From Acidimicrobiia bacterium (GTDB taxonomy: Bacteria > Actinomycetota > Acidimicrobiia > Acidimicrobiales > AC-14): a stretch of DNA of 45,059 nucleotides. The position numbers and the translations under genes were made by a program. Location: NCBI GenBank assembly GCA_023264995.1, contig JAHFUR010000034.1:1-45059 (forward strand), written 5' to 3'. The notes under the pieces were generated by a model. That model saw nothing but the letters and a program-made list of their open reading frames with translations, had not been told where the DNA came from and ran no database searches. Each line of letters starts with the position of its first letter. Position 1 is the stretch's first letter. This document shows positions 9,017 through 45,059 of this stretch, in pieces.

Positions 9017-9199
9017 GTGGCTGTCCACGATCCGAACCCATCGAAGCCTCGTCCGACGATTCCGGGCGCACCGGGAGCGTTGGGGCCCGAGGTCGTCGTC
9101 CATCGCTTGTTTGCCCTGACCGCCGCTGCCGACGCCCTGTCCGCGCCGTCGGGTACGCCGGTCGTTCCGGGATTGTCCGCCGGGAGAGGAACCTTCTGA
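9017..9199 (+). CDS. Possible 60-residue leader protein before the CASTOR-like gene
   Basis: A GTG at 9017-9019 with GGAG nine bases upstream opens a 60-codon frame rich in Pro, Ala and Val. Its TGA overlaps the next start as TGATG, an arrangement typical of translational coupling. No family is recognised. It may be a small protein, a translated leader or chance; the coupling and binding site are the only support. Confidence 0.3.
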   Translation: MAVHDPNPSKPRPTIPGAPGALGPEVVVHRLFALTAAADALSAPSGTPVVPGLSAGRGTF

Positions 9200-11163
9200 T
9201 GTCAGCACGTCGCTCCTTCCGAAGGCGCCTTCGCTACAAGTTCGACACCGTCCTGGCGCGCGGCACCATCGCAGTGATCCTCTGGTTGGCTCTCATCACC
9301 GGGGCCGTGGTGCTCGTCACCGGCACCATGCTTTCGGTGCTCGAGGTGTTGGTCCATGGTCACCATGTAGGCATCGTCGAAGGGGTCTGGCAGAACCTCT
9401 TGCGAAGCCTCGAGCCGGCGGCGATGGAGGCTGACGTGGGGTGGCCCCTTCGCCTCCAGTCGCTGTTCGTGGTGCTCTTCGGGATCTTCGTTGGAAGCTC
9501 GCTGATCGGCCTGATCGCGAGCGGGATCGAACGGCGGGTCGACGAACTGCGCAAGGGCCGAAGCGAGGTGCTCGAGGAGGGCCACGTGTTGATCCTCGGC
9601 TGGTCCGACAAGGTCTTCCCCGTGATCGCCGAGCTCCTCCTCGCCCATCGAGCCCAACGCCACAGCGTCATCGTCGTTCTCGCCGATCGCGACAAGATCG
9701 AGATGGAGGACGCCATACGGGCCCGCGTTCGCCACTTCGGCCATACCCGGCTCGTCTGCCGTAGGGGCGATCCAGCCAATCCGGCGGACCTGGCACTGGT
9801 GAGCCCGTATCACACCAGGTCGGTGATCGTGTTGGGCGACAACCGCACCGAAGGTGATGCCCAGGTGATCCGGGCTGTGCTGGCGCTCATGGACGACGAG
9901 GAACGGTTCCCGACTGTTCGGGTCGTGGCCGACTGCACCCGCCCGGAGAATGCAGATGCGCTCAGAGAGGCCTCCGGAGGGCAGGCGATCGCCATCGCGT
10001 CGTCCGACCTGATCGCCCGCATCACCGCGCAGGCTTGCCGCAACACCGGCCTGGGAACCGTATTCCAGGAGATCCTGGACTTCGGCGGCGTCGACATCTA
10101 CTTCCACGACGACCCCCGGCTCGCGGGGCGGGCCTTTGGCGACCTGGTCCTCTCCTACGAACAGGGGGCTCCCATCGGCATCCGCTACTCCGACGGGATC
10201 GTCGACCTGAACCCGCCCGACGGCCACGTCGTAGCGGAGACCGAGACCGTCGTGGTCATCACAGGGAACGCGGAGGACATCGACCTCCGCGCCGAACCGG
10301 CGCGCCCGGTGCTGCCTCCACCGAGCTCGGCCGCGAGCGACCTGCGCCCGAGCAGGTTGCTGATGGTCGGCTGGAACCCCATGGCGCCGGCGATCCTCGC
10401 CGAGCTCGACAAATGGGTGGAGCCGGGGTCGACGATCCGGGTGCTGATCGACGGAGGTCTCGTCAGCGAGAGCGAAGTGACAGTACCCGGCTTGCGCTCG
10501 CTGGAGGTGTCGGTGACGACGGCCTATGAATCAGCCCCCCAGAAGGTTGCCGAGCTCTGCGCCAAAGAGCAGTACGAGCGGGTCGTCGTGCTCTGCTATC
10601 GCACGAAGCTGACGGCGGAGGAAGCTGACGCACGCGCCCTCATGACCCTGCTGCAGCTGCGCCAGTTCCGCCAGGACAACCCCGAGAAGGGTAGGCAGAT
10701 GAGCGTGCTGACCGAGGTCCTCGACATCCGGGACGTCCAGCTCGCCAGGGTCGCCGGCGCGGAGGACTTCATTGTCAGTGAGCGGATCACTGCCCTGATG
10801 CTGGCCCAGTTGGCCGAGGTGCCCGAACGGGAGAAGGTCTTCGCCGATCTCTTCGAGGTCACCGGCTCGGAGGTCTGCATGCGGCCCGTATCCGACTACG
10901 CCGAGCCTCAGCCTGGCCTCCCCTTCGGCGCCTACGTGGCCGCCGCACATCAGGTCGGGCACCTTGTGATCGGCTATCGCTCGACCAGCGCCCGTGGGAA
11001 GGACCTCGCCTCGGCCATCCAGTTGGACCCGCCGAAGTCGAAGCCAGTGGACCTTCAGCCCAACGACCGCCTGATCATCGTCGTGAGCCGCGAGAACGAT
11101 CCGGCCGTCGCCACCGCTTCGGGCCAAGGTGCCGGCCAGCGCGACGAGAATGGTCAGCGGTAG
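9199..11163 (+). CDS. CASTOR/POLLUX-like ion channel protein with RCK-type domains
   Basis: A 654-residue protein. Two transmembrane helices (about 22-50 and 88-112) enclose a pore-loop-like stretch, as in the ion channels CASTOR and POLLUX of plants and their bacterial homologues. The rest is cytoplasmic with two Rossmann-like regulatory (RCK/TrkA-N type) units: the first starts at EGHVLILGWSDKVFPVI (about 128), the second at SRLLMVGWNPMAPAIL (about 386). Each is followed by a smaller regulatory lobe, for example ERVVVLCYRTKLTAEEADARAL. Such channels gate K+ or Ca2+ flux by ligand binding to the RCK ring. AGAGGAA eight bases before the ATG supports the start. It follows the CaCA antiporter on the same strand, consistent with a cation-homeostasis role. 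Confidence 0.85.
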   Translation: MSARRSFRRRLRYKFDTVLARGTIAVILWLALITGAVVLVTGTMLSVLEVLVHGHHVGIVEGVWQNLLRSLEPAAMEADVGWPLRLQSLFVVLFGIFVGSSLIGLIASGIERRVDELRKGRSEVLEEGHVLILGWSDKVFPVIAELLLAHRAQRHSVIVVLADRDKIEMEDAIRARVRHFGHTRLVCRRGDPANPADLALVSPYHTRSVIVLGDNRTEGDAQVIRAVLALMDDEERFPTVRVVADCTRPENADALREASGGQAIAIASSDLIARITAQACRNTGLGTVFQEILDFGGVDIYFHDDPRLAGRAFGDLVLSYEQGAPIGIRYSDGIVDLNPPDGHVVAETETVVVITGNAEDIDLRAEPARPVLPPPSSAASDLRPSRLLMVGWNPMAPAILAELDKWVEPGSTIRVLIDGGLVSESEVTVPGLRSLEVSVTTAYESAPQKVAELCAKEQYERVVVLCYRTKLTAEEADARALMTLLQLRQFRQDNPEKGRQMSVLTEVLDIRDVQLARVAGAEDFIVSERITALMLAQLAEVPEREKVFADLFEVTGSEVCMRPVSDYAEPQPGLPFGAYVAAAHQVGHLVIGYRSTSARGKDLASAIQLDPPKSKPVDLQPNDRLIIVVSRENDPAVATASGQGAGQRDENGQR

Positions 11164-22362: not shown

Positions 22363-23946
22363 CTACTGCCGCCGCCAGTCCCGGCGGGTCAGGCTGATGA
22401 AGTACTGGTCGGAGCCGGGGACGTTGCGGTGCAGGATGTCGGAGAGGCTCCTGGTGGAGGTGAGGATCTCCATCCCCAGCGGCGAGAACGTCTCCGTCGT
22501 GAAGACCCGGGGCGACAGCAGCGGGTTGGTGAACGCCTGCGAGAACGCGTCGATCCCAACCATGCGCCCGACGACGGAGGGGAGCACCGAGTTGGGTCGG
22601 GTGTCCTCTGCGTACAGGCCGGTGTAGAACTCGATCCGATCGGGAGTGCGGTACAGGTCCTCCAGGGCGCGTTGGGCTCTCGGGTCCCCGGACACCTGGT
22701 CGAACGCCGTCACGCGCGGGAACTTGGCCAGCTCCCGGTAGTCGTTGTAGGACGCCAGCTCCACGGCACGGCCCTTCTCGACGCTCCACTGCTGGACACC
22801 CCGGAGCTCCGGGCTGGTGTTGAAGACGGTCACCTTGCCCGCCGGCTGGCTCGACGCGTCCTCCATCACCCGCCCGAGGCCGTGCTCGGTGAGCATCCGG
22901 GTGTCATAGAGCGTGTCGTGGACGGACACTTCGCTGCCCCCGACGACATAGGACTCGGGAACGAGCGGGTGCCACCGGTAGACGAGGTTGAACTCCACCG
23001 CCATCCAGTTGGTGCGGTACCAGGGCGGGTTCTTGAAACTGGTCGGGTCGGCGCGGAACTGGAAGTGGTACGGCGTGATGTGGTTGATGTACTCGTTGAC
23101 GACGATCTTGATGAGCAGGACGATCATGATGTTGCGGGCGGTCTCGAACAGCTGGTCGTCGTCCCAACCCGGGTACGCCCGGTGCAGTTCCCGAGCGACG
23201 CGGTTGTGCTCGCGCAGGAACAGGACGTTCATCAGCACGAAGCCGAGTTGCAGGTTCCCGGTGTCGCTACCCAGGGCGAAGAACGTGGCCAGCTTCTCGG
23301 CCGGCGGAGGCGCCAGCCGGGTGTGGACCCAGGTGACCTTGTCGAACTCGGCCTTCTGGTTGCCGTCGGCGCCGTACAGGTAGGGCGGGTATTCCTCACC
23401 GTTGATGACCTGGCTCTTCAGCAAGCCACCCTCGTGCGCACGTAGCTGCTCGGTCACCTCCCGCGTGAGCCCATAGATCTGCATGAGATCGATCTCGTGG
23501 TTCGAATCGTTCTTGCGGGCGTCGGGCCCGTGGGGTGGCGGCGTGCGGTCGCTCCGCAAGAAGCCGTCGGTGAACCACGCGGCGAAGTAGGAGAACAGGA
23601 CCGTCGATTTCGGGCACGGCGTGAACTCGCCCTCGGGGCGGACGAAGACGTCGGCGACGTCGGCCGCGGGCGGGAGGTCTGCCGGCGGCGCCGCCGGCGG
23701 TAGGTGGCGGCCGCTGAACTTCCGGTCGGTGAGCGACGCCCACGACGTGTAGTCGGCCATCGTGCTGAACGGGTTGGGCCGGTACGGCATCTTGGCGCTG
23801 GCGCTGTTGACCAGCCGGCCGTTCACCCATCGTTCGACCTTGGGGTGACGCTGGGCCCAGTGCCACAGCGGGGCACCATGGGTGAGCAGGTAGAGCTCAC
23901 GCCGGTTCTCCCCGCCGTCCCTGCTGGTGTCCCGTCCATTGCCCAT
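22363..23946 (-). CDS. Cyclooxygenase-like animal-type haem peroxidase / fatty acid dioxygenase
   Basis: A 527-residue protein of the animal haem peroxidase superfamily, closest in motif layout to prostaglandin H synthase (COX) and alpha-dioxygenases. VEFNLVYRWHPLVPESY aligns with the COX motif around Tyr385 and His388: Tyr323 would be the radical tyrosine and His326 the proximal haem ligand. SNHEIDLMQIYG (about 148-159), LQLGFVLMNVLFLREHNRVA (232-251) and NPLLSPRVFTTETFSPLG near the C-terminus also fit. The COX distal pair Gln203/His207 (FAQHFTH) appears as FAAWFTD, so Ala123 and Asp127 replace it. No signal peptide or EGF domain is present. The start at 23944-23946 leaves only 53 bases to the divergent phospholipase gene. 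A role in oxidising membrane-derived fatty acids is inferred. Confidence 0.85.
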   Translation of the reverse strand: MGNGRDTSRDGGENRRELYLLTHGAPLWHWAQRHPKVERWVNGRLVNSASAKMPYRPNPFSTMADYTSWASLTDRKFSGRHLPPAAPPADLPPAADVADVFVRPEGEFTPCPKSTVLFSYFAAWFTDGFLRSDRTPPPHGPDARKNDSNHEIDLMQIYGLTREVTEQLRAHEGGLLKSQVINGEEYPPYLYGADGNQKAEFDKVTWVHTRLAPPPAEKLATFFALGSDTGNLQLGFVLMNVLFLREHNRVARELHRAYPGWDDDQLFETARNIMIVLLIKIVVNEYINHITPYHFQFRADPTSFKNPPWYRTNWMAVEFNLVYRWHPLVPESYVVGGSEVSVHDTLYDTRMLTEHGLGRVMEDASSQPAGKVTVFNTSPELRGVQQWSVEKGRAVELASYNDYRELAKFPRVTAFDQVSGDPRAQRALEDLYRTPDRIEFYTGLYAEDTRPNSVLPSVVGRMVGIDAFSQAFTNPLLSPRVFTTETFSPLGMEILTSTRSLSDILHRNVPGSDQYFISLTRRDWRRQ

Positions 23947-23999
23947 GGTCCGTCGTACCCCCCGTGCAGGCGCCGGCCACACACGCTATGCGAAGCTCT
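23947..23999. promoter_or_regulatory. Divergent promoter region of the oxygenase and phospholipase genes
   Basis: Only 53 bases separate the two preferred starts, so both promoters must overlap here or lie inside the opposing gene. GCTATG (23985-23990) is the best -10-like sequence for the plus strand, but it is weak. A shared control site is likely from the spacing alone. Confidence 0.4.
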
Positions 24000-26900
24000 A
24001 TGCCGCAGGCGGGGCGGGGCGGAATGGGGGCGGCGACGGGGATGGGGACCGACGAACAGACCTGGCAGGGACGGCTCGGCCGGCTCGTGCGCGCGCTGGC
24101 GGTCCCGCTGGCCACCATTGCCGTCTCGCTGGCGTTGATCCAGTTCAAGACCGACGTCAAACCGAAGGTCGACCCGACGAACGTGTCGTGCCTCAAGAGC
24201 GACACGCTCAGCGCGCTCGTGCGGCGGTACCCGGCCGAGATGGCGACCGCGCAGCTCACGCGATGGGCGGACTGCGGCCAGGACCTCAAGGCCCGCGCCC
24301 GGAAGACGCTGCCTTGGGACGCCGCCCTCATCGCCACCATCACGGTCGGCCTGGTCTGGTCGGTACGCGTCCTCTACCAGCGCCGGCGCTGGAAGCTGGC
24401 TGGCCTGTTCGGCGCCCTGCTCACCGCCGCCTATGTGGTCGGCGACGGGTGGGAGGACCTCACCCTGCGCCACGTCCTGACCGGAGCCGTGGGCTCACAC
24501 CGCCTGCCGTGGTTGGCCGCCGTCAAGATGGGAGGCGTCCTGGGCGCCGTCCCTGTGGTGGCCACCGCCATGCTGCTGACGGCGTCCCGTACACGCCCTG
24601 ACAAGGACCTGCCGCCGCAACTGGTCGGTCCGCCGGACCCAGTCCCGGGAGAAACGGCGCAGGTGAGCGGGGGGGCCTCCGATCACGGGCCGGCCCAGTC
24701 CTCGGTCGAGCGGACCAGTCTCGCCACGCAGTACCGTGACCCGGCGGAGGCGAACAGGCCGATCGCCGACGGCGTCACGGTCTCACAGGAGCGGACAAGG
24801 GGCGTTGCCTGTTCCGGGGGTGGCATCCGCTCCGCGGCCTTCGCCCTCGGCGCGCTCCAGGCCCTTGACGAGAGTCCGACGCAGCTTGGTCCGGATGGGA
24901 AGGGGATGACCGAGCTCGAGCAGTGCCGCTGGCTCAGCTCGGTGTCCGGCGGTTCCTACATGGCCGCGGCATGGATGCTGGCGCGGAGCCCGGGGGACGG
25001 CTCCCCGCCGGCGGCGACCACGCGGCCCTGGGCCCGGCAGTCCCCGGAGGAGGACTTCCTCCGCCGGCACTCCTCCTACCTGGCGCCAGGGTTGAGCGGC
25101 AAGCTCTGGGCCCTCGTCTGGTTCCTCCTCGGCCTCGTCCTCAACGTCGGTCTTATCGGCCTGGCCATCGCATTCGTCATGCTGCCCTACGGATGGGCGA
25201 CGAGCGCCGGCCAGGTGGACCGCCTCGTCAAGAGTGCCGTCGTGACCCTGCCGGAGGGAGGGTGCATCCACCTCCCGGACGCGACGTGGTTCCTGGCCCA
25301 GGCCGGCGCCAAGCTCCGGCTCTCCGTCGGCGCCCAGCCCACCCCGGCCGGCGCCGGCGCCGTCGAGCTGCCACCGTCGAAGGGAGCGACCCCCAAGGCG
25401 TCGGCCACCGCCGACGGCTCGCCAGCAGTGGCGCTCGCCTTTGCCGCCGGCCAGACGACGAGCACGACGACGGCCACGACGACACCCTCCTGTGTGCCTG
25501 CGTCCAGGACACCGTCGAGCGCCGGCCTCCCGCCGAGCGCCCCTGGCAACGTGTTCCCGAAGGGCTCCCGCGTCCCAGTCGCGCCCGGTACCGGGCTGCT
25601 CGTCGAGGGCGAGACGGTCTCGGGATGTGTGGTCGCGGCGTCCCCCAACATCCCGACGGGGACCTGCGCCGCCGCGTCGCTCCAGGTCACCGGCATCCCG
25701 CCGGGGAGCCGGGTCGAGTCGGCGCCACTCGCCCTTCTGGCGCTGGACGGGGCGGCGGTGGCCGACCCGAGCGGCGAGCACCCCCTCGTCCGGTCCTGCG
25801 GCGCCAAGGCGTGCCAGACCTTCTCCCTCCCGGGCGTCATCGCATGGCCGGTTCGGGGCCTGCTCGGCCTGTTCCTGGTCATGGGCGTGGCCATGGTGGC
25901 CGTCCCGCCCAAGGATTCGGAGCATCACGTCGGCCGTGAAAGCCGGGTGCACTGGCTGGCCATCCTGACCGGCACCGTGGTCCTGTTCGTCGTCATCGTG
26001 CCGTGGGTGGTGACGTGGCTGGAACACAGCCGCCACCTCTTGGAGGACCGGTTGCCGGTCGCGTCGGGGGCCAGCGGCGCGACCATCCTCACTGCGCTGC
26101 TGGCGCAGGTCCGGTCCGGGTCCGGCCGATCGACGTCCGAAGCCGAGACGGGCCGACCGAAGGCGCTGGCGCAACGGCTCGGCGGCGGCGCCCGAAAGGT
26201 GCTCATCAGGCTGGGAGCCTGGGTGGCAGGGCCCGTGCTCCTCCTCGGTGCGGCCCTTGCCATCGCCGTGTCGGGGGCGTCGCGAGGCTTGATCCCGCAC
26301 CAGCTCCTCGTCTTCCTCATCATCACCGGCTGGCTCGTTGCCGTCGGGTCTGGCGCCGATCTCAACGAATGGTCACTGCACCCCTACTACCGCGACCACC
26401 TCCGCGGCGCGTATGGGATGCGGGTGCGCGACGCCGACCAACCACCTGGCTCCCGCCCGCTGGACGACCCTCTCGCCAAGCTCGGGCCGGTCGGCCGAAC
26501 AGAACTGGTCCTTTGTGCCACCGCCAATATCGCCGACTCGTCGATGACCTCTCCCGGTCGCCCGGCGATCCCGTGGACGTTCACCAAGGACCGCATCGGC
26601 AGCATGGCCATCGAGGCGGCAACGGGCCACGGGACGTACGCGCCAGCCCAGTTGGGGACACGGTTCGCTGATCTCGACTCGATCTGGACCGCGGTCGCGG
26701 TGTCAGGCGCGGCCTTCTCACCGGCGATGGGGAAGATGAACCGCCCGGAACGGTGCCTCTTTGCCCTGGGCAACCTGCGCTTGGGCGTCTGGTACCCGAA
26801 CCCGGTCTACTTCCCTGACCGGCCGGCTCACCTGGAGAGCGCCCACTTCGACCGGCAGTGGTACGAGACCCACCACACCCGTCCCTGGTACCTGCTCAAG

Positions 26901-27542
26901 GAGGCATTCGGGCTCCACCGGCTGAAGGACCCGTGGGTCTACGTCACCGACGGCGGCCACTACGAGAACCTCGGCCTCGTGGAGCTGCTGCGCCGGCGAT
27001 GCCGGGAGATCTACTGCTTCGACGCCAGCGGCGACAGCCCCGACACGTTCGGGACCATGGCCGAAGCCATGCGGCTGGCCCGGGAGGAGCTGAACGTCGA
27101 GGTCGTGATGCGCCCGGAGCCTATGAAGCCGGACTCGTCCGGGATCTCGCGGATGGGCGTGTGGGCCGGTACGGTCGCCTATCCGGCCATCGGCGACGGC
27201 GAGCCAGAAGTCGGCTGGATCGTGCTGGCCAAGCTGGCCGTCCCCCGGACGGCGCCGTTCGACATCGTCGACCTGGCCCGCTCGCTGCCGTCGTTCCCGA
27301 ATCACCCCACGGCGGACCAGCTCTACACCGACCAGAAGTTCGAGGCCTACCGCGCACTGGGGCACCACCTTGGCCGCGAGGCGATCACGGTTGGGCACAG
27401 GATCCGCACGCTCCTGAGCAACGGCCAGGTCACCGAGGCGGAGGCGGTCGAGCAGGTCAACGACTGGCTGTGCTCCCGCCCCGACCCGGTGAAGTGCATC
27501 GAGCCAACCAAGCCGCCGGCCGGTCGCGTCACCACGAAATAG
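24000..27542 (+). CDS. Large membrane patatin-like phospholipase
   Basis: About 1180 residues. The patatin catalytic parts are clear: oxyanion-hole glycines in CSGGGIRSAA (Gly273-275), nucleophile Ser316 in LSSVSGGSY and the catalytic Asp984 in VTDGGHYENLGL. These would cut acyl chains from phospholipids. Unlike simple patatins, it has four hydrophobic helices in the first 195 residues, a pair near 370-400, a large Ser/Thr/Pro-rich insert (about 415-615) and further helices near 630-790, with the DGG half of the active site after them. The catalytic halves are thus split by a membrane region. I use the ATG at 24000; a GTG at 23964 in frame would overlap the divergent promoter. Its neighbour encodes a cyclooxygenase-like enzyme, suggesting release of fatty acid for oxygenation. 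Confidence 0.85.
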   Translation: MPQAGRGGMGAATGMGTDEQTWQGRLGRLVRALAVPLATIAVSLALIQFKTDVKPKVDPTNVSCLKSDTLSALVRRYPAEMATAQLTRWADCGQDLKARARKTLPWDAALIATITVGLVWSVRVLYQRRRWKLAGLFGALLTAAYVVGDGWEDLTLRHVLTGAVGSHRLPWLAAVKMGGVLGAVPVVATAMLLTASRTRPDKDLPPQLVGPPDPVPGETAQVSGGASDHGPAQSSVERTSLATQYRDPAEANRPIADGVTVSQERTRGVACSGGGIRSAAFALGALQALDESPTQLGPDGKGMTELEQCRWLSSVSGGSYMAAAWMLARSPGDGSPPAATTRPWARQSPEEDFLRRHSSYLAPGLSGKLWALVWFLLGLVLNVGLIGLAIAFVMLPYGWATSAGQVDRLVKSAVVTLPEGGCIHLPDATWFLAQAGAKLRLSVGAQPTPAGAGAVELPPSKGATPKASATADGSPAVALAFAAGQTTSTTTATTTPSCVPASRTPSSAGLPPSAPGNVFPKGSRVPVAPGTGLLVEGETVSGCVVAASPNIPTGTCAAASLQVTGIPPGSRVESAPLALLALDGAAVADPSGEHPLVRSCGAKACQTFSLPGVIAWPVRGLLGLFLVMGVAMVAVPPKDSEHHVGRESRVHWLAILTGTVVLFVVIVPWVVTWLEHSRHLLEDRLPVASGASGATILTALLAQVRSGSGRSTSEAETGRPKALAQRLGGGARKVLIRLGAWVAGPVLLLGAALAIAVSGASRGLIPHQLLVFLIITGWLVAVGSGADLNEWSLHPYYRDHLRGAYGMRVRDADQPPGSRPLDDPLAKLGPVGRTELVLCATANIADSSMTSPGRPAIPWTFTKDRIGSMAIEAATGHGTYAPAQLGTRFADLDSIWTAVAVSGAAFSPAMGKMNRPERCLFALGNLRLGVWYPNPVYFPDRPAHLESAHFDRQWYETHHTRPWYLLKEAFGLHRLKDPWVYVTDGGHYENLGLVELLRRRCREIYCFDASGDSPDTFGTMAEAMRLAREELNVEVVMRPEPMKPDSSGISRMGVWAGTVAYPAIGDGEPEVGWIVLAKLAVPRTAPFDIVDLARSLPSFPNHPTADQLYTDQKFEAYRALGHHLGREAITVGHRIRTLLSNGQVTEAEAVEQVNDWLCSRPDPVKCIEPTKPPAGRVTTK

Positions 27543-27567: not shown

Positions 27568-27594
27568 ATGCCTGACCGGCGCGGCGCGCCATGA
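27568..27594 (+). CDS. Possible 8-codon leader peptide
   Basis: ATG at 27568 is six bases after a CACACT -10-like box and encodes MPDRRGAP before a TGA that overlaps the kinase-fusion start as ATGA. This may be a leaderless upstream frame that couples translation into the next gene. It is too short to judge by composition. Confidence 0.25.
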   Translation: MPDRRGAP

Positions 27595-30050
27595 TGAGCA
27601 GCCACGGTCCCGGTGCGGTGCCGGTGCTCAGGGTCGCCGACCTGCACAAGGCGTTCGGGCGCCGGCCGGTCTTGCGGGGCGTGACCTTCGAGCTCCACCG
27701 GGGCGAGATCCTGGCCCTCGTCGGCGAGAACGGCGCCGGCAAGTCGACCGTGGTGCAGTGCGTGGCCGGGACCTTGCCGAGGGACCGCGGCACGGTGGAG
27801 GTGCACGGGCGCCCCGGGTCGGCCCCGGCGCCCGGTGTGGGGTACCGCGACATCGAAGTGGTGTGGCAGCACCTGGCCCTCTGCGACAACCTGAGCGTGG
27901 TCGCCAACCTCTTCCTGGGCGACGAGCTGCTCGAGCACGGGATGCTCGACGACGCCGGCATGGTCGAGGAAGCCAAAGCCCTCTTCGCCCGCCTCCACAT
28001 CCCGGCATCGGACCTGCGCCGGCCGGTAGGCGCCCTTTCCGGCGGCCAGCGCCAGCTCGTGGCCATCGCTCGGGCCCTCCGCCGTGACCCCTCCGTTCTG
28101 GTCCTCGACGAGCCGACGGGCTCGCTCGGCGCCCAGGAGACCGCCGTCGTCGAGCGGCTCCTGGCCGAGGTGCGGGCAAGCGGGACCGCCATCCTGATGG
28201 TGTCCCACCAGCTCGACCAGGTCTTCGGCCTGGCCGACCGCATCGCCGTCCTGCGCGACGGCCACATCCTGGCCGACGTGTCGTCGCTCGAAGTCCACCC
28301 CGACGACGTCCTCGCCCTCATGTCGGGCATCGAGACCGACTCGGCGGCCCGGCGCCAGCTGCGCCGGCTCCGGAGCTTGGTCGAGCAGCTCGCCGACGTG
28401 GAGCCGGCGGCCAGCCTGCCCCTCATCGTGTCGGCTATGGCCGAGGCGCTCGGCATCGACCGGCTGTGCATCCACCTCCTCCACCCAGGCGACACCGACG
28501 CCCCGCCCCGTCTCACGCGATCGGCGGCGCTGGGCATGCCCGATGGCCTCCTGCGCGCCCTCGGCTCGCTGCCGGCCGACGGGCGGGGTGGGCCCCCGGG
28601 CCTGGCCGCCGCCACCGGCCAGGCCGTGCTTGTCGACGACGCCCGCCTCGACCCGCTCTGGGCCCCGTTCCTCGCCGCCGGCCCCACCCAGCTCCGCAGC
28701 TTCTGGTCGGTGCCCATCGTCGGGTCGACCGGCGTGCTCGGGACCATCTCCGGCTACGCCGACACCAGCGGCCGGCCACAGGCCGACCAGCTCGAGCTGG
28801 TCTGGCTCTATGCCGGGCACGCCGCTGCCGCCATCGAGCGCGAGCACCTCCTCACCGAGGCGACCCGTAGGAACCGGGTCCTGGAAACCCTCCGCGGCGT
28901 CCTCGACACCCTGGCCGGCCCGCAGCCCGCCCACGGCGGCCTGACCCTGGCCCTGCTGGCCCTCTGCCGGGGCCTGCGGGCCGACGCCATCGCCTTGCAC
29001 CGGCCGGACGGTGAACGGTCCGAGCTCTCGACCGGGCCGCTCGGCGTACCGCCCGAGCACGCCCGGTCCCGGCAGAGAGAGGCAGCCGAGGCCGTGCGCC
29101 GCGCCGCGTCCGGCGACCACGGCGTCCGCCGGTTCGGAGGCGACGTGCTCGCCGTGCCGCTGGACACGCCGGCCGGGCGCGCCGTCGTGACCGCGTGGTG
29201 GGCCGGCGGTCCCCCGTCGGACGAGGCCTCCGACCTGCTCGGCGACGCGGCCCGGTCGCTCCGTCTGGCCATCGAGCGCGAGGCGCTGGAAGGAGCTCGG
29301 GCCGAAGCCGCGTCCTTGCGCCGCTCCCAAAGGTTGCAACGGGAGTTCCTGTCCCGCATGAACCACGAGCTGCGCACGCCCCTCACCGCCATCCAGGGGT
29401 ACGCCTCGACCCTCCGCCAGCCCGACGTCGACTGGGACGACGCGTCGCAGCGGCGCTTCCTCGACTCGATCGCGTCGGAGTCGGCCCGGATGGGACGGCT
29501 CATCGGCGACCTCCTCGACTTCAGCGCCATCGATTCCGGCGCGATGCGCCTGGCCCCTGACTGGTGCGACCTCGCGCTGGTGCTGGAGGCCGCCAGGCGA
29601 TGTGTCCGCTCGCCCCGGTCGCTCATCGCCGTGCACATGCCCGCCGACCTCCCGTCCGTGTGGGCGGACCACGACCGGCTCGAACAGGTCTTCGTCAACC
29701 TGCTGGACAACGCCGTCCTTCACGCCACGGGGCTCACGGAAGTCTCGGTCGACGCATGCCACGACCCGGCTGCCGGCACCATCACGGTGCGGGTCCGTGA
29801 CGACGGCCCCGGCATCCCCGCGGCGCTGGGCGACCGCGTCTTCCTCCCCCACGAGCGGGGCGCCGATGCCGGCCCCGGCCTGGGCCTCGGCCTGGCCATC
29901 GCCCGCGGCATCGTCGACGCCCACGGCGGGACGATCAGGATCGACCCCGCGGCGAGCGGCGCGGTGATGGTGGTCGTCCTGCCCGTCGAGCCGGCCGGCG
30001 CCGGCGGCACCGACCGAGACCTCGAGCTGCCGGTCGGAGAGGCCCGATGA
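27591..30050 (+). CDS. ABC ATPase - GAF - histidine kinase fusion protein
   Basis: An 819-residue protein. Residues 1-250 are a full CUT2 (ribose/xylose-type) ABC ATPase: Walker A GENGAGKS (45-52), signature LSGGQ (149-153), Walker B VLVLDEP with Glu174, and His206 in the H loop. Residues about 265-420 and 430-565 look like two GAF domains. A coiled stretch leads to the phosphoacceptor MNHELRTPL (His592), then the N box FVNLLDNAVLHAT, G1 RDDGPGIP and G2 GPGLGLGLAI. No transmembrane helix is visible, so membrane contact would come through a permease. All ATPase and kinase motifs are intact. It is coupled by ATGA to the response regulator and precedes a sugar ABC operon whose own ATPase is a paralogue of its N-terminus. 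I infer that it senses transport. Confidence 0.92.
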   Translation: MMSSHGPGAVPVLRVADLHKAFGRRPVLRGVTFELHRGEILALVGENGAGKSTVVQCVAGTLPRDRGTVEVHGRPGSAPAPGVGYRDIEVVWQHLALCDNLSVVANLFLGDELLEHGMLDDAGMVEEAKALFARLHIPASDLRRPVGALSGGQRQLVAIARALRRDPSVLVLDEPTGSLGAQETAVVERLLAEVRASGTAILMVSHQLDQVFGLADRIAVLRDGHILADVSSLEVHPDDVLALMSGIETDSAARRQLRRLRSLVEQLADVEPAASLPLIVSAMAEALGIDRLCIHLLHPGDTDAPPRLTRSAALGMPDGLLRALGSLPADGRGGPPGLAAATGQAVLVDDARLDPLWAPFLAAGPTQLRSFWSVPIVGSTGVLGTISGYADTSGRPQADQLELVWLYAGHAAAAIEREHLLTEATRRNRVLETLRGVLDTLAGPQPAHGGLTLALLALCRGLRADAIALHRPDGERSELSTGPLGVPPEHARSRQREAAEAVRRAASGDHGVRRFGGDVLAVPLDTPAGRAVVTAWWAGGPPSDEASDLLGDAARSLRLAIEREALEGARAEAASLRRSQRLQREFLSRMNHELRTPLTAIQGYASTLRQPDVDWDDASQRRFLDSIASESARMGRLIGDLLDFSAIDSGAMRLAPDWCDLALVLEAARRCVRSPRSLIAVHMPADLPSVWADHDRLEQVFVNLLDNAVLHATGLTEVSVDACHDPAAGTITVRVRDDGPGIPAALGDRVFLPHERGADAGPGLGLGLAIARGIVDAHGGTIRIDPAASGAVMVVVLPVEPAGAGGTDRDLELPVGEAR

Positions 30051-43481: not shown

Positions 43482-43862
43482 TCAGCGTCGAGCCCGCTGC
43501 TCCCCGAGGCAACGGGCAACCTGATCGCGTAGCTGGCCGTTCTCGGCGCGGAGCTGCACGACCTCCGTCCTCGTGGCATCGAGACGCTGGCGGAGCGAGG
43601 CAACGCTGGCCCGGTGCTTTGCCGCGGCCGCCGCCGCTGGACGCCCGGTGCTCGGTCGAAGACCGGTGATCGTTGCCCGCAGGTCGTCCTGGCTGTAGAG
43701 CCACGAGCGGGAGACGCCGGCGGTAGCCGCGACCGCGGAGAACGTGACGGCTTCGCCGGCGGCAGTCAGCTGCTCGACCGCGGCGGTGGCCCGGCGCAGC
43801 GCCTCCCGGCGACGCTCAGCAGCGGCCGCGGTGAGGTGGTGGGTGTTGTCGGCTCGGGTCAC
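43482..43862 (-). CDS. DUF6262 protein (TnpC-like) of a Tn554-type element
   Basis: A 126-residue protein: TRADNTHHLTAAAAERRREAL, an AVTFSAVAATAGVSRSWLYSQ helix-turn-helix, then a C-terminal coiled coil (ASLRQRLDATRTEVVQLRAE). This is the plan of DUF6262/TnpC proteins encoded next to Tn554-type tyrosine recombinases, where they assist orientation or efficiency of transposition. The start GTG at 43860-43862 overlaps the recombinase stop as GTGA. Confidence 0.82.
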   Translation of the reverse strand: MTRADNTHHLTAAAAERRREALRRATAAVEQLTAAGEAVTFSAVAATAGVSRSWLYSQDDLRATITGLRPSTGRPAAAAAAKHRASVASLRQRLDATRTEVVQLRAENGQLRDQVARCLGEQRARR

Positions 43863-45059
43863 GACGGCGGACCGTCCTCCATGCTCTCGAGGGCCGGGAT
43901 GATGTGGTCGAGGCTGGCCTGGACTTGGCGGAGGTTCTCGGCCAGGCGGAAGTGGCCGTTGGCATCGGCGCGGGCGATCAGTTTGCGGTTGGCCGTTGCC
44001 TGGGCGCGGTGCACGTCGAGGAACTCTGGCGTCGTCTGGAAGTCCGGGCAGGTGAGACAGGCGTTGGGGTGCGGGCAATCCTGCTGCGGTGGCCGGCCGC
44101 AGTAGCCGTTGGGCAGGCTGTCTCGCACCCGGGAGAGGTTGTGCTTGACCCACTCCGCCTCGGCGGTGAGGGCGCCGGGGTCATAGGGCACCGCCTCGCC
44201 GGTGACGTTCACCCGCTGGCGGCAGTAGTGCTCGAAGGCGTCGCGCACGGTGTGGTCGTGGATCTGCGCGTATCGGGCGGTCATGCGAGGGCTGGCGTGG
44301 CCGAGGAGCTTCTGGATGACGTGCTGGGGGACGCCGGCGTTGATGAGCCTCGTCCCGACGGTGTGGCGGAACTGGTGTGGAGCGACGTGGACGGCCAGCC
44401 CCGCCTCGTCGCGCACGTCGATGGCCTGTTGCCACCGGCACAGCTGCGCGGACATGGTGACGCGGGCGTAGGGCTTGGCGCCGTCGGCGTTTTCCAGGAT
44501 CCCCGGGAACAGCCACGGTGACCCCATCGGGAACAGCTGGCGGACATGGGCCTGCTGGGCACGGATCGCCGTGGCCGCCTTGGCGCTGAGGGGAATGAGC
44601 TGTTCGTTGCTGAGCTTGCTGTTGGCGAAGCGGAGGCAAGGCCATCCGGCGCTGTCGTCGATGAGGGGGTTGAAGGCGAGCTCGCAGGCGTCGCCGCCCC
44701 GCATCCCCGTCTCCATCAACACGATGAGGAGGTGGCGCGCCGTCGGGTTGGCGATGCGGGCCAGGTTGGCCTCGGACTCCAACTGGGCCATGACGAACTC
44801 GGGGATGAAGCGGGGCAGCGCGTCGGCCGGCCGGCTCACCTCCTCCTCGTAGATGACGGCGTCTGCCGGAAGCCCGTCGAGGGTGCCGTGGCGCCGGCCC
44901 CAGTCGAGGAACACCTTGACGAAGGTCAGCGACTGCGAGCGCGTCGAGGTGCCCCAACGGCTCGTCGCCATCCACGACAGGTAGTCCACAAGCAGGTCGC
45001 GGGTGACGCCGGAGGCGTCGTCGACGCTTGGGTGTCGGTGGTCCAGGAACTCTGAGAAC
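43859..45059 (-). CDS. Tyrosine recombinase (Tn554 TnpB-like), N-terminus beyond window
   Basis: At least 400 codons are present and the frame continues past the right edge. Catalytic residues of the tyrosine recombinases are clear: Arg in ETGMRGGDACEL, HQFRHTVGTRLINAG (HxxR), KLLGHASPRMTARYAQI (GH and nucleophile Tyr). Before them lies a SAM-like N-terminal core-binding domain (LDHRHPSVDDASG, then DYLSWMATSRWG). A C-terminal extension has CPHPNACLTCPDFQT, a Cys-rich zinc-like motif typical of Tn554-type TnpB, and helical tail. It moves DNA by site-specific recombination. Coupled by GTGA to the DUF6262 gene. The transposon terminus should lie near 43343-43481, where I could not define it. Confidence 0.9.
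   Translation of the reverse strand, partial: FSEFLDHRHPSVDDASGVTRDLLVDYLSWMATSRWGTSTRSQSLTFVKVFLDWGRRHGTLDGLPADAVIYEEEVSRPADALPRFIPEFVMAQLESEANLARIANPTARHLLIVLMETGMRGGDACELAFNPLIDDSAGWPCLRFANSKLSNEQLIPLSAKAATAIRAQQAHVRQLFPMGSPWLFPGILENADGAKPYARVTMSAQLCRWQQAIDVRDEAGLAVHVAPHQFRHTVGTRLINAGVPQHVIQKLLGHASPRMTARYAQIHDHTVRDAFEHYCRQRVNVTGEAVPYDPGALTAEAEWVKHNLSRVRDSLPNGYCGRPPQQDCPHPNACLTCPDFQTTPEFLDVHRAQATANRKLIARADANGHFRLAENLRQVQASLDHIIPALESMEDGPPS

Follow-up and report, generated by a model that had tools for sequence, protein, structure and literature searches.

We found two genes lying back to back, in divergent orientation, in a 45,059-nucleotide stretch of an Acidimicrobiia draft genome (GCA_023264995.1, contig JAHFUR010000034.1; the whole stretch is called the window below). 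One encodes a cyclooxygenase (COX)-like haem protein, a putative dioxygenase of the 10S-dioxygenase (10S-DOX) type (22363..23946, - strand, 527 aa from the ATG at 23946), as indicated by a PF03098 match, a COX-2 match, a structural model and a 27-row alignment. The other encodes a membrane protein resembling phospholipases of the patatin/cPLA2 fold (24000..27542, + strand, 1180 aa from the ATG), as indicated by a sub-cut-off PF01734 score, motifs and a low-confidence fold model. Phospholipases and haem dioxygenases seem to be paired repeatedly in bacteria, and the window holds a one-off COX-like version of this pairing. That the window pair acts as a small lipid-oxidation unit, in which fatty-acid release is followed by dioxygenation to a hydroperoxide, is in our judgement an evenly balanced proposition. 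To our knowledge, few enzymes of bacterial oxylipin formation are known, and the origin of their fatty-acid substrate is seldom clear.

In such a unit, the membrane phospholipase would use a predicted Ser316/Asp984 dyad to cleave membrane lipid and so free an unsaturated fatty acid. The COX-like protein would then abstract a hydrogen by means of a Tyr323 radical beside the His326-bound haem, O2 would be added, and a fatty-acid hydroperoxide would form, similar to the 10S-hydroperoxide of the Nostoc enzyme. At related loci, this hydroperoxide may be handed on to an adjoining cytochrome P450 or catalase-related haem enzyme. The window has no such neighbour, so that here the product would be the hydroperoxide itself, or would be converted by an enzyme encoded elsewhere. 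The fold, the residues, the gene order and the recurrence of patatins beside other fatty-acid-dioxygenase-type genes are observed, whereas catalysis, substrate and product, the coupling of the two proteins and any role as a signal or in defence are inferred.

Patatin-like proteins beside haem dioxygenase-type genes on plasmids

A plasmid search with the P450 that accompanies some COX-like genes returned nine records and led to Methylobacterium plasmids. On three of the four that were opened, a di-haem cytochrome c peroxidase-like gene and a relative of the window patatin are arranged back to back, with a regulator and the P450 alongside; the di-haem genes that were scanned match PF21419 and are RoxA-like. 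On a Phyllobacterium plasmid, the patatin is followed by thiamine pyrophosphate-binding genes and then by a protein that joins a catalase-related and an alpha-dioxygenase (alpha-DOX) part (330 bits, plant alpha-DOX). This fusion (L109:11372-14221) has a counterpart in Rhizobium sp. N731 (L113:5930-8758), and both would unite a dioxygenase and a possible hydroperoxide-using domain in one protein.

Coordinates were compared between 39 patatin plasmid records (best place per record) and 32 di-haem plus 19 alpha-DOX records. A di-haem RoxA/FadCcp-like or alpha-DOX-like gene lies within 5 kb of the patatin on 11 of the 39 patatin plasmids. Both kinds of gene occur on 12 plasmids, and the distance is at most 5 kb on 11 of these, against 0.18 expected under random placement on those records; a phospholipase with a haem dioxygenase therefore looks recurrent in bacteria. 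The 11 comprise four Methylobacterium plasmids, two unlike Rhizobium plasmids, and a Rhizobium group of four together with the Phyllobacterium plasmid. A second patatin type, reached via Sinorhizobium fredii NGR234, lies within 5 kb of a dioxygenase-type gene on six of eight plasmids, which are all six that carry both (0.32 expected); five of them are near copies with a di-haem gene and one is a Calothrix plasmid with alpha-DOX. Patatins of the window's family also occur in other settings, near TIR genes, a Pycsar effector, or genes for lysozyme or peptidase. Such a relative adjoins a PycTM Pycsar effector at L105:7059-10800 and several TIR-domain genes at L108:4072-9974 and L110:3313-12111, a defence-like setting.

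The COX-like haem protein

The sequence-only reading of this DNA had described a divergent COX-like haem protein with Tyr323 and His326, and the open reading frame (ORF), the database scores and the alignment positions agree with it. The Pfam family An_peroxidase (PF03098) matches with 157 bits. In a PDB sequence search, residues 31-524 matched COX-2 with 230 bits; the best chain outside COX reached 63 and alpha-DOX 28, and the top 35 of the 60 chains listed are COX-1 or COX-2 without exception. The predicted model, built from 17 aligned sequences, has a mean predicted local distance difference test (pLDDT) of 81.4 and a predicted template modelling score of 0.86. It superimposes on COX-2 with a Z-score of 40.7 and a root-mean-square deviation of 2.2 over 475 residues (model residues 12-522), and the alignment begins in the COX membrane-binding region and includes the membrane-binding helices; the best peroxidases reach Z 31 and alpha-DOX Z 28. 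That reading called the enzyme divergent; its nearest solved relatives, in sequence as in fold, are COX-1 and COX-2. What it missed is the exchange of the distal His for Asp.

Residues were compared by COX numbering in 27 aligned rows, the window protein and 26 relatives, of which L063 is a broken copy; Tyr323 and His326 are counted from the ATG at 23946. The equivalent of the COX radical Tyr385 is Tyr323 (22978..22980, - strand) and that of the proximal haem ligand His388 is His326 (22969..22971, - strand). Both are present in 26 rows with a gap in L063, as is the Trp387 equivalent, and the Tyr348 equivalent is kept in all 27. At the site of the distal His207, the window protein has Asp127 (23566..23568, - strand), an Asp shared by all 27 rows; the FTDxF around it is as printed for the Nostoc 10S-DOX. 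The distal Gln203 is kept in 25 rows and is Ala123 in the window, which thus lacks the COX peroxidase-site pair His207/Gln203. The COX channel set of Arg120 with Gly526, Ser530 and Gly533 is likewise absent from the window protein: arginine is missing from the six commonest letters at position 120, which account for 26 rows (Ala in 17, Ala49 in the window), Gly526 is Val463 in the window, Ser530 is Ala in 27 of 27 rows (Ala467), and Gly533 is Gln in 24 (Gln470). Phe529 is replaced by Asp in every row.

Judged by model and alignment, the haem protein is a COX fold without the COX active site. A fatty-acid hydroperoxide is its most likely product, and a prostaglandin-type endoperoxide an unlikely one, because the simple, 10S-DOX-like hydroperoxide fits the active-site residues better. 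Its own peroxidase activity is probably low, since the distal His and, in the window copy, the neighbouring Gln are replaced. It carries an FTDxF motif in the distal helix, a central YIxxITP, an FxxxY and a terminal GxDAFxQA, matched by eye against the 10S-DOX motifs printed in Table 2 of PMC13049297, from which the Nostoc enzyme is known here. Because FTDxF, YIxxITP and GxDAFxQA are those printed for that enzyme, the COX-like family, judged by its motifs, probably works like 10S-DOX. According to the relevant passages of the same review, the Nostoc punctiforme linoleate 10S-DOX forms 10S-hydroperoxides from oleate and linoleate (PMC13049297).

The window's own genome holds two more distant genes of the animal-peroxidase family, about 14 kb apart on contig C1 (L002 and L003; 71 and 57 bits).

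The patatin-like membrane protein

A membrane protein with GGG, VSGGS and DGG motifs had also been claimed, and this description holds: GGGIR, SVSGGS and TDGG are present, and hydropathy predicts several membrane segments, among them some between Ser316 and Asp984. In 10 aligned rows (the window protein and nine relatives), the GGGxR, SGG and DGG columns are invariant. The putative oxyanion loop GGGIR (residues 273-277; 24816..24830, + strand) is invariant in GGG and R. The predicted nucleophile Ser316 (24945..24947, + strand) lies, in a low-confidence model, between a strand (311-315) and a helix (317-329). The predicted catalytic Asp984 of TDGG (26949..26951, + strand) follows 668 residues further on.

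The protein scores below the cut-offs of PF01734 (19.6 bits against 27.7) and of the cPLA2-type family PF01735, PLA2_B (9.3 against 23). Among five relatives scanned, the Phyllobacterium plasmid protein passes both (40.5 and 27.2), that of L103 passes PF01734 (35.1), and three pass neither. A PDB sequence search with the window protein alone gave no match up to E 1, and a search with the family profile gave weak matches (best E 0.0036), VipD, cPLA2 and ExoU among them. The model from 10 rows is poor, with a mean pLDDT of 52.5; its fold matches are human cPLA2 delta (Z 20.6), cPLA2 alpha (19.8), PlpD (17), CapE (17) and patatin (15), each of which covers the ends of the chain on both sides. CapE and CapV, which lie at Z 15-17, are known as effectors of cyclic oligonucleotide-based antiphage signalling systems. 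Members of the family occur in 11 of 296 genomes of the phylum, the window's own included, and this genome has a second copy on a different contig.

Distribution and partners of the COX-like gene

Relatives of the COX-like gene are sporadic. They occur in 7 of 396 genomes of the phylum (the window's own included), in 10 of 298 genomes from the order to which Smaragdicoccus belongs (centre included) and in 12 of 72,556 plasmid records; a scan of genome contigs gave six loci. In the tree, the window copy adjoins three copies from one other actinobacterial genus (Shimodaira-Hasegawa-like approximate likelihood ratio test support 99). Neighbourhoods were compared at 33 loci, made up of the window, 20 loci from 18 genomes and the 12 plasmid records (four of them near-identical Paracoccus yeei), with flanks of up to 10 kb, several cut by contig ends and two loci almost flankless on one side.

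A P450 of one family lies near the COX-like gene at 7 of the 33 loci, in Actinomycetota, Rhizobium and Sinorhizobium; it is the direct neighbour at six and 4.1 kb away at L026. A catalase-related protein lies near it at nine loci, directly adjoining at eight, of which four are the near-identical plasmids, and 5.6 kb away at L066. Neither gene was found at 17 of the 33 loci, including the window, where tblastn with the companion P450s and with the catalase-related protein found none. Both families include enzymes that act on fatty-acid hydroperoxides, as stated in part of a recent review (PMC13049297). The companion P450 (E below 1e-40) occurs in 5 of the 396 phylum genomes, four of which have it no more than 4.1 kb from the COX-like gene; the fifth has a P450 of 34% identity and does not belong to the COX-like-positive genomes. 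When P450-linked and catalase-linked COX-like genes were checked on the tree for forming single clades, three changes each were counted (three and four with all rows), and as few came out in 56 and 52 of 500 shuffles. A Pfam scan of 98 neighbours and the window patatin, picked from 186 listed and with some boundaries redrawn, found P450 in six and catalase in three; the patatin family is not within the top 25 of 120 families, which extend down to two members, so that at most one further match is possible.

At L034:3141-7617 (a Paracoccus yeei plasmid) and its near copies L035, L041 and L042, a di-haem RoxA-like, a catalase-related and the COX-like gene form a run, the last two overlapping by four bases. 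Large signalling ATPases (AAA_16 with BTAD, cyclase or kinase domains) directly adjoin the COX-like gene at L025:5929-9351, L039:7605-10607, L040:7561-10584 (assigned from annotation and similarity) and L066:5480-9514. DUF1353 genes recur near lipid-oxidation loci (L037:7662-8366; L038:12023-12619, by annotation only; L101:12182-12901).

Gene layout and surroundings in the window

The gap between the two ATG starts measures 53 bases (23947..23999). The sequence-only reading had called it a shared promoter region; the distance stands, and scans of the gap for a sigma-70 consensus and for terminators found no site, for which reason a shared promoter region amounts here to a statement of distance. 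Alternative GTG starts lie at 23982 for the COX-like gene (ORF 22363-23982, - strand, 539 aa) and at 23964 for the patatin gene (ORF 23964-27542, + strand, 1192 aa); if these are the true starts, the ORFs overlap without a gap. Third-position G+C is 0.92 in the COX-like and 0.89 in the patatin ORF, and both are real genes. Neither protein was matched by NCBIfam.

The assembly comprises 3.8 Mb in 81 contigs and is 98% complete. In the protein encoded at 27591-30050, downstream of the patatin gene, a GAF domain and a histidine kinase are joined to an ABC-transporter ATPase; genes for a response regulator, a periplasmic binding protein and a permease come next. At 9199-11163 lies the gene of a Castor/Pollux-type ion channel protein, and at the window edge (43859-45058) that of a phage-type integrase.

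Discussion

The plasmid data allow a reading wider than the window's own lipid-oxidation unit, namely a modular, often plasmid-borne bacterial oxylipin cassette that would consist of a patatin/cPLA2-fold phospholipase, one of three haem dioxygenase families (COX/10S-DOX-like, di-haem RoxA/FadCcp-like or alpha-DOX-like) and, optionally, a P450 or catalase-related enzyme. We regard this cassette as possible, though rather doubtful. If it is real, the window would be an independently assembled bacterial counterpart of the animal cPLA2-to-COX route, and the COX-like/P450 pairs at sister loci would correspond, without fusion, to the fungal enzymes that join a dioxygenase to a P450 (DOX-CYP). A truly recurrent pairing of phospholipase and haem dioxygenase would mean that bacteria share the two-step logic of animals, release followed by oxidation, and would point to specific plasmid loci for studying it. 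The gene kinds themselves are already known; new here are a pairing of phospholipase and dioxygenase that recurs with several dioxygenase families, and the pairs of COX-like gene and P450 in bacteria. No report of bacterial patatin/dioxygenase or COX-like/P450 pairs was found among the titles and abstract starts of open-licence papers that literature searches listed.

Several findings weigh against these proposals. The sequence-only reading had offered adjacency in relatives as a check on its pathway, and for this particular pair the outcome is negative: within the flanks compared, as judged by tblastn with the window patatin and a motif scan of long ORFs, the COX-like/patatin pair occurs at one of the 33 COX-like loci, the window itself, in one draft assembly, and a patatin relative is held by one of the 20 other COX-like-positive genomes or records, on a contig apart from an interrupted COX-like gene. 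Ten actinobacterial patatin loci (L082-L091; eight from 7 of 10 other patatin-positive genomes, the own second copy and G350, with L090 and L091 covering about 4 kb only) have neither a COX-like gene nor another tested oxidising enzyme nearby, and in the patatin tree the window copy falls among such actinobacterial copies and apart from the linked copies of Proteobacteria. The 12 COX-like plasmid records and the 39 patatin plasmid records have no member in common. A conserved COX-like/patatin pair is ruled out by these neighbourhood counts. The commoner partners of the COX-like gene are the P450 (7/33) and the catalase-related protein (9/33), and a divergent pair is not necessarily co-expressed. 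As to the wider pairing, the 11 linked plasmids represent few lineages, about four by our grouping. Of ten plasmid regions opened by patatin match, seven lack a dioxygenase-type gene within 8 kb, the nearest sisters of two linked ones among them, and two of the remaining three were opened because coordinates already indicated such a gene. The patatin family thus has no universal tie to lipid oxidation. The poor quality of the phospholipase model counts on the same side, as does a result from the fungal 8R-DOX, in which replacement of the distal His merely reduced catalysis, according to a passage in PMC13049297; the suggestion of weak peroxidase activity is therefore not firm. The broader claim of a pathway that cuts and oxidises lipid survives in part, in that the lipid hydrolase recurs beside dioxygenases of other families (11/39 plasmids), the exact pair being rare. 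The window pair seems to have been assembled independently, provided that it functions as a pair at all.

The main rival is accidental adjacency, in which a 10S-DOX-type dioxygenase was acquired alone beside an unrelated patatin and acts together with a P450 or some other enzyme whose gene lies elsewhere. The single occurrence among 33 loci speaks for it, as do the sporadic distribution of both families, the failure to find the COX-like gene in two same-genus and seven same-family genomes, and the sister copies L022-L024, which have a P450 partner and no patatin. Against it, patatins of the same family recur far above chance beside other haem fatty-acid-dioxygenase families, and the window's own genome yielded nothing close to the companion P450 (best 26% identity) and no catalase-related match in a search run without a positive control. 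We consider accidental adjacency a serious candidate, somewhat short of an even chance. It is improbable, in our view, that the pair is a membrane-attack or defence cassette, in which the patatin would degrade the membrane on a signal and the dioxygenase would make a toxic hydroperoxide against phages or rivals. Patatins of the family do stand beside TIR proteins (L108, L110) and the PycTM effector (L105), the low-confidence model has CapE and CapV among its fold neighbours, and the Pseudomonas 10S-DOX is toxic when over-expressed, an effect attributed to the hydroperoxide by its authors in the part of their paper drawn on here (PMC4496055). However, neither protein was matched by the PADLOC defence models, and the window has no adjoining cyclase or TIR gene, the next gene downstream being the ABC-ATPase/histidine kinase of a transporter run.

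Two further readings concern the haem protein itself. A true bacterial cyclooxygenase making a prostaglandin-type cyclic endoperoxide could appeal to a 2025 review, in a passage of which bacterial COX-like enzymes are said to contribute to prostaglandin E2 synthesis (PMC11941309). The window residues at Arg120 (Ala), His207 (Asp), Gly526 (Val), Ser530 (Ala) and Gly533 (Gln) contradict this, and we rejected a true cyclooxygenase by the numbered alignment, leaving it a very slight probability. In addition, the polyunsaturated substrate is usually missing from bacterial membranes. Membership in PF03098 would also suit a plain peroxidase of the animal-peroxidase superfamily; with the distal His replaced by Asp in all 27 rows, the distal Gln lost in the window copy and peroxidases far lower in sequence score and fold, this reading was rejected on sequence and fold and deserves hardly any credence. 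The lipid-oxidation unit and accidental adjacency are the readings to which we give most weight.

Comparison with known systems

The Nostoc 10S-DOX (UniProt B2J5P4), as far as the printed motifs and passages describe it, shares with the window protein a length of about 540 aa, COX-type membrane-binding helices, the distal Asp, the Tyr and His, and the motifs. The window copy differs in having Ala at the distal Gln site (Gln in 25/27 rows) and Tyr instead of Phe at the Tyr504 site. A catalase-related hydroperoxide lyase can convert the linoleate product of the Nostoc enzyme, as a passage of PMC13049297 states, whereas the window gene neighbours a patatin and, by tblastn of the window, has no adjoining gene for such a lyase. 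Bacterial COX-like sequences were reported in 2015 as family 4 of the peroxidase-cyclooxygenase superfamily, as putative proteins only; the passages concerned do not include gene neighbourhoods (PMC4420034).

With animal COX-1 and COX-2, the window protein shares the oxygenase fold (Z 40.7) and differs in the key COX residues, which are replaced. Similarly, the low-confidence phospholipase model matches cPLA2 delta and alpha (Z 20.6 and 19.8), but the window protein has membrane segments and a long insertion separating Ser from Asp, and Pfam detects no C2 domain in it. A likeness in fold to animal cPLA2 and COX does not amount to common descent of the pathway.

Relatives of the window patatin also stand near RoxA-like PF21419 genes, akin by type only to the oleate 10S-DOX and diol synthase of Pseudomonas aeruginosa (FadCcp, di-haem), which are described as RoxA-similar di-haem proteins in the part of PMC4496055 drawn on here, and near alpha-DOX-type genes (330 bits) like the plant enzyme. 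As oxygenase families, the di-haem type is unrelated to the window COX-like protein and alpha-DOX is distant. In the fungal DOX-CYP fusions (linoleate diol synthases, PpoA type), a COX-like dioxygenase is joined to a P450, as it is found near one at 7 of the 33 bacterial loci; the bacterial genes are two and unfused, and tblastn with the companion P450s found none in the window. The COX-like/P450 pairs bear on the origin of the fungal fusions, for which a possible ancient bacterial ancestor is discussed in passages of a 2026 review (PMC13049297).

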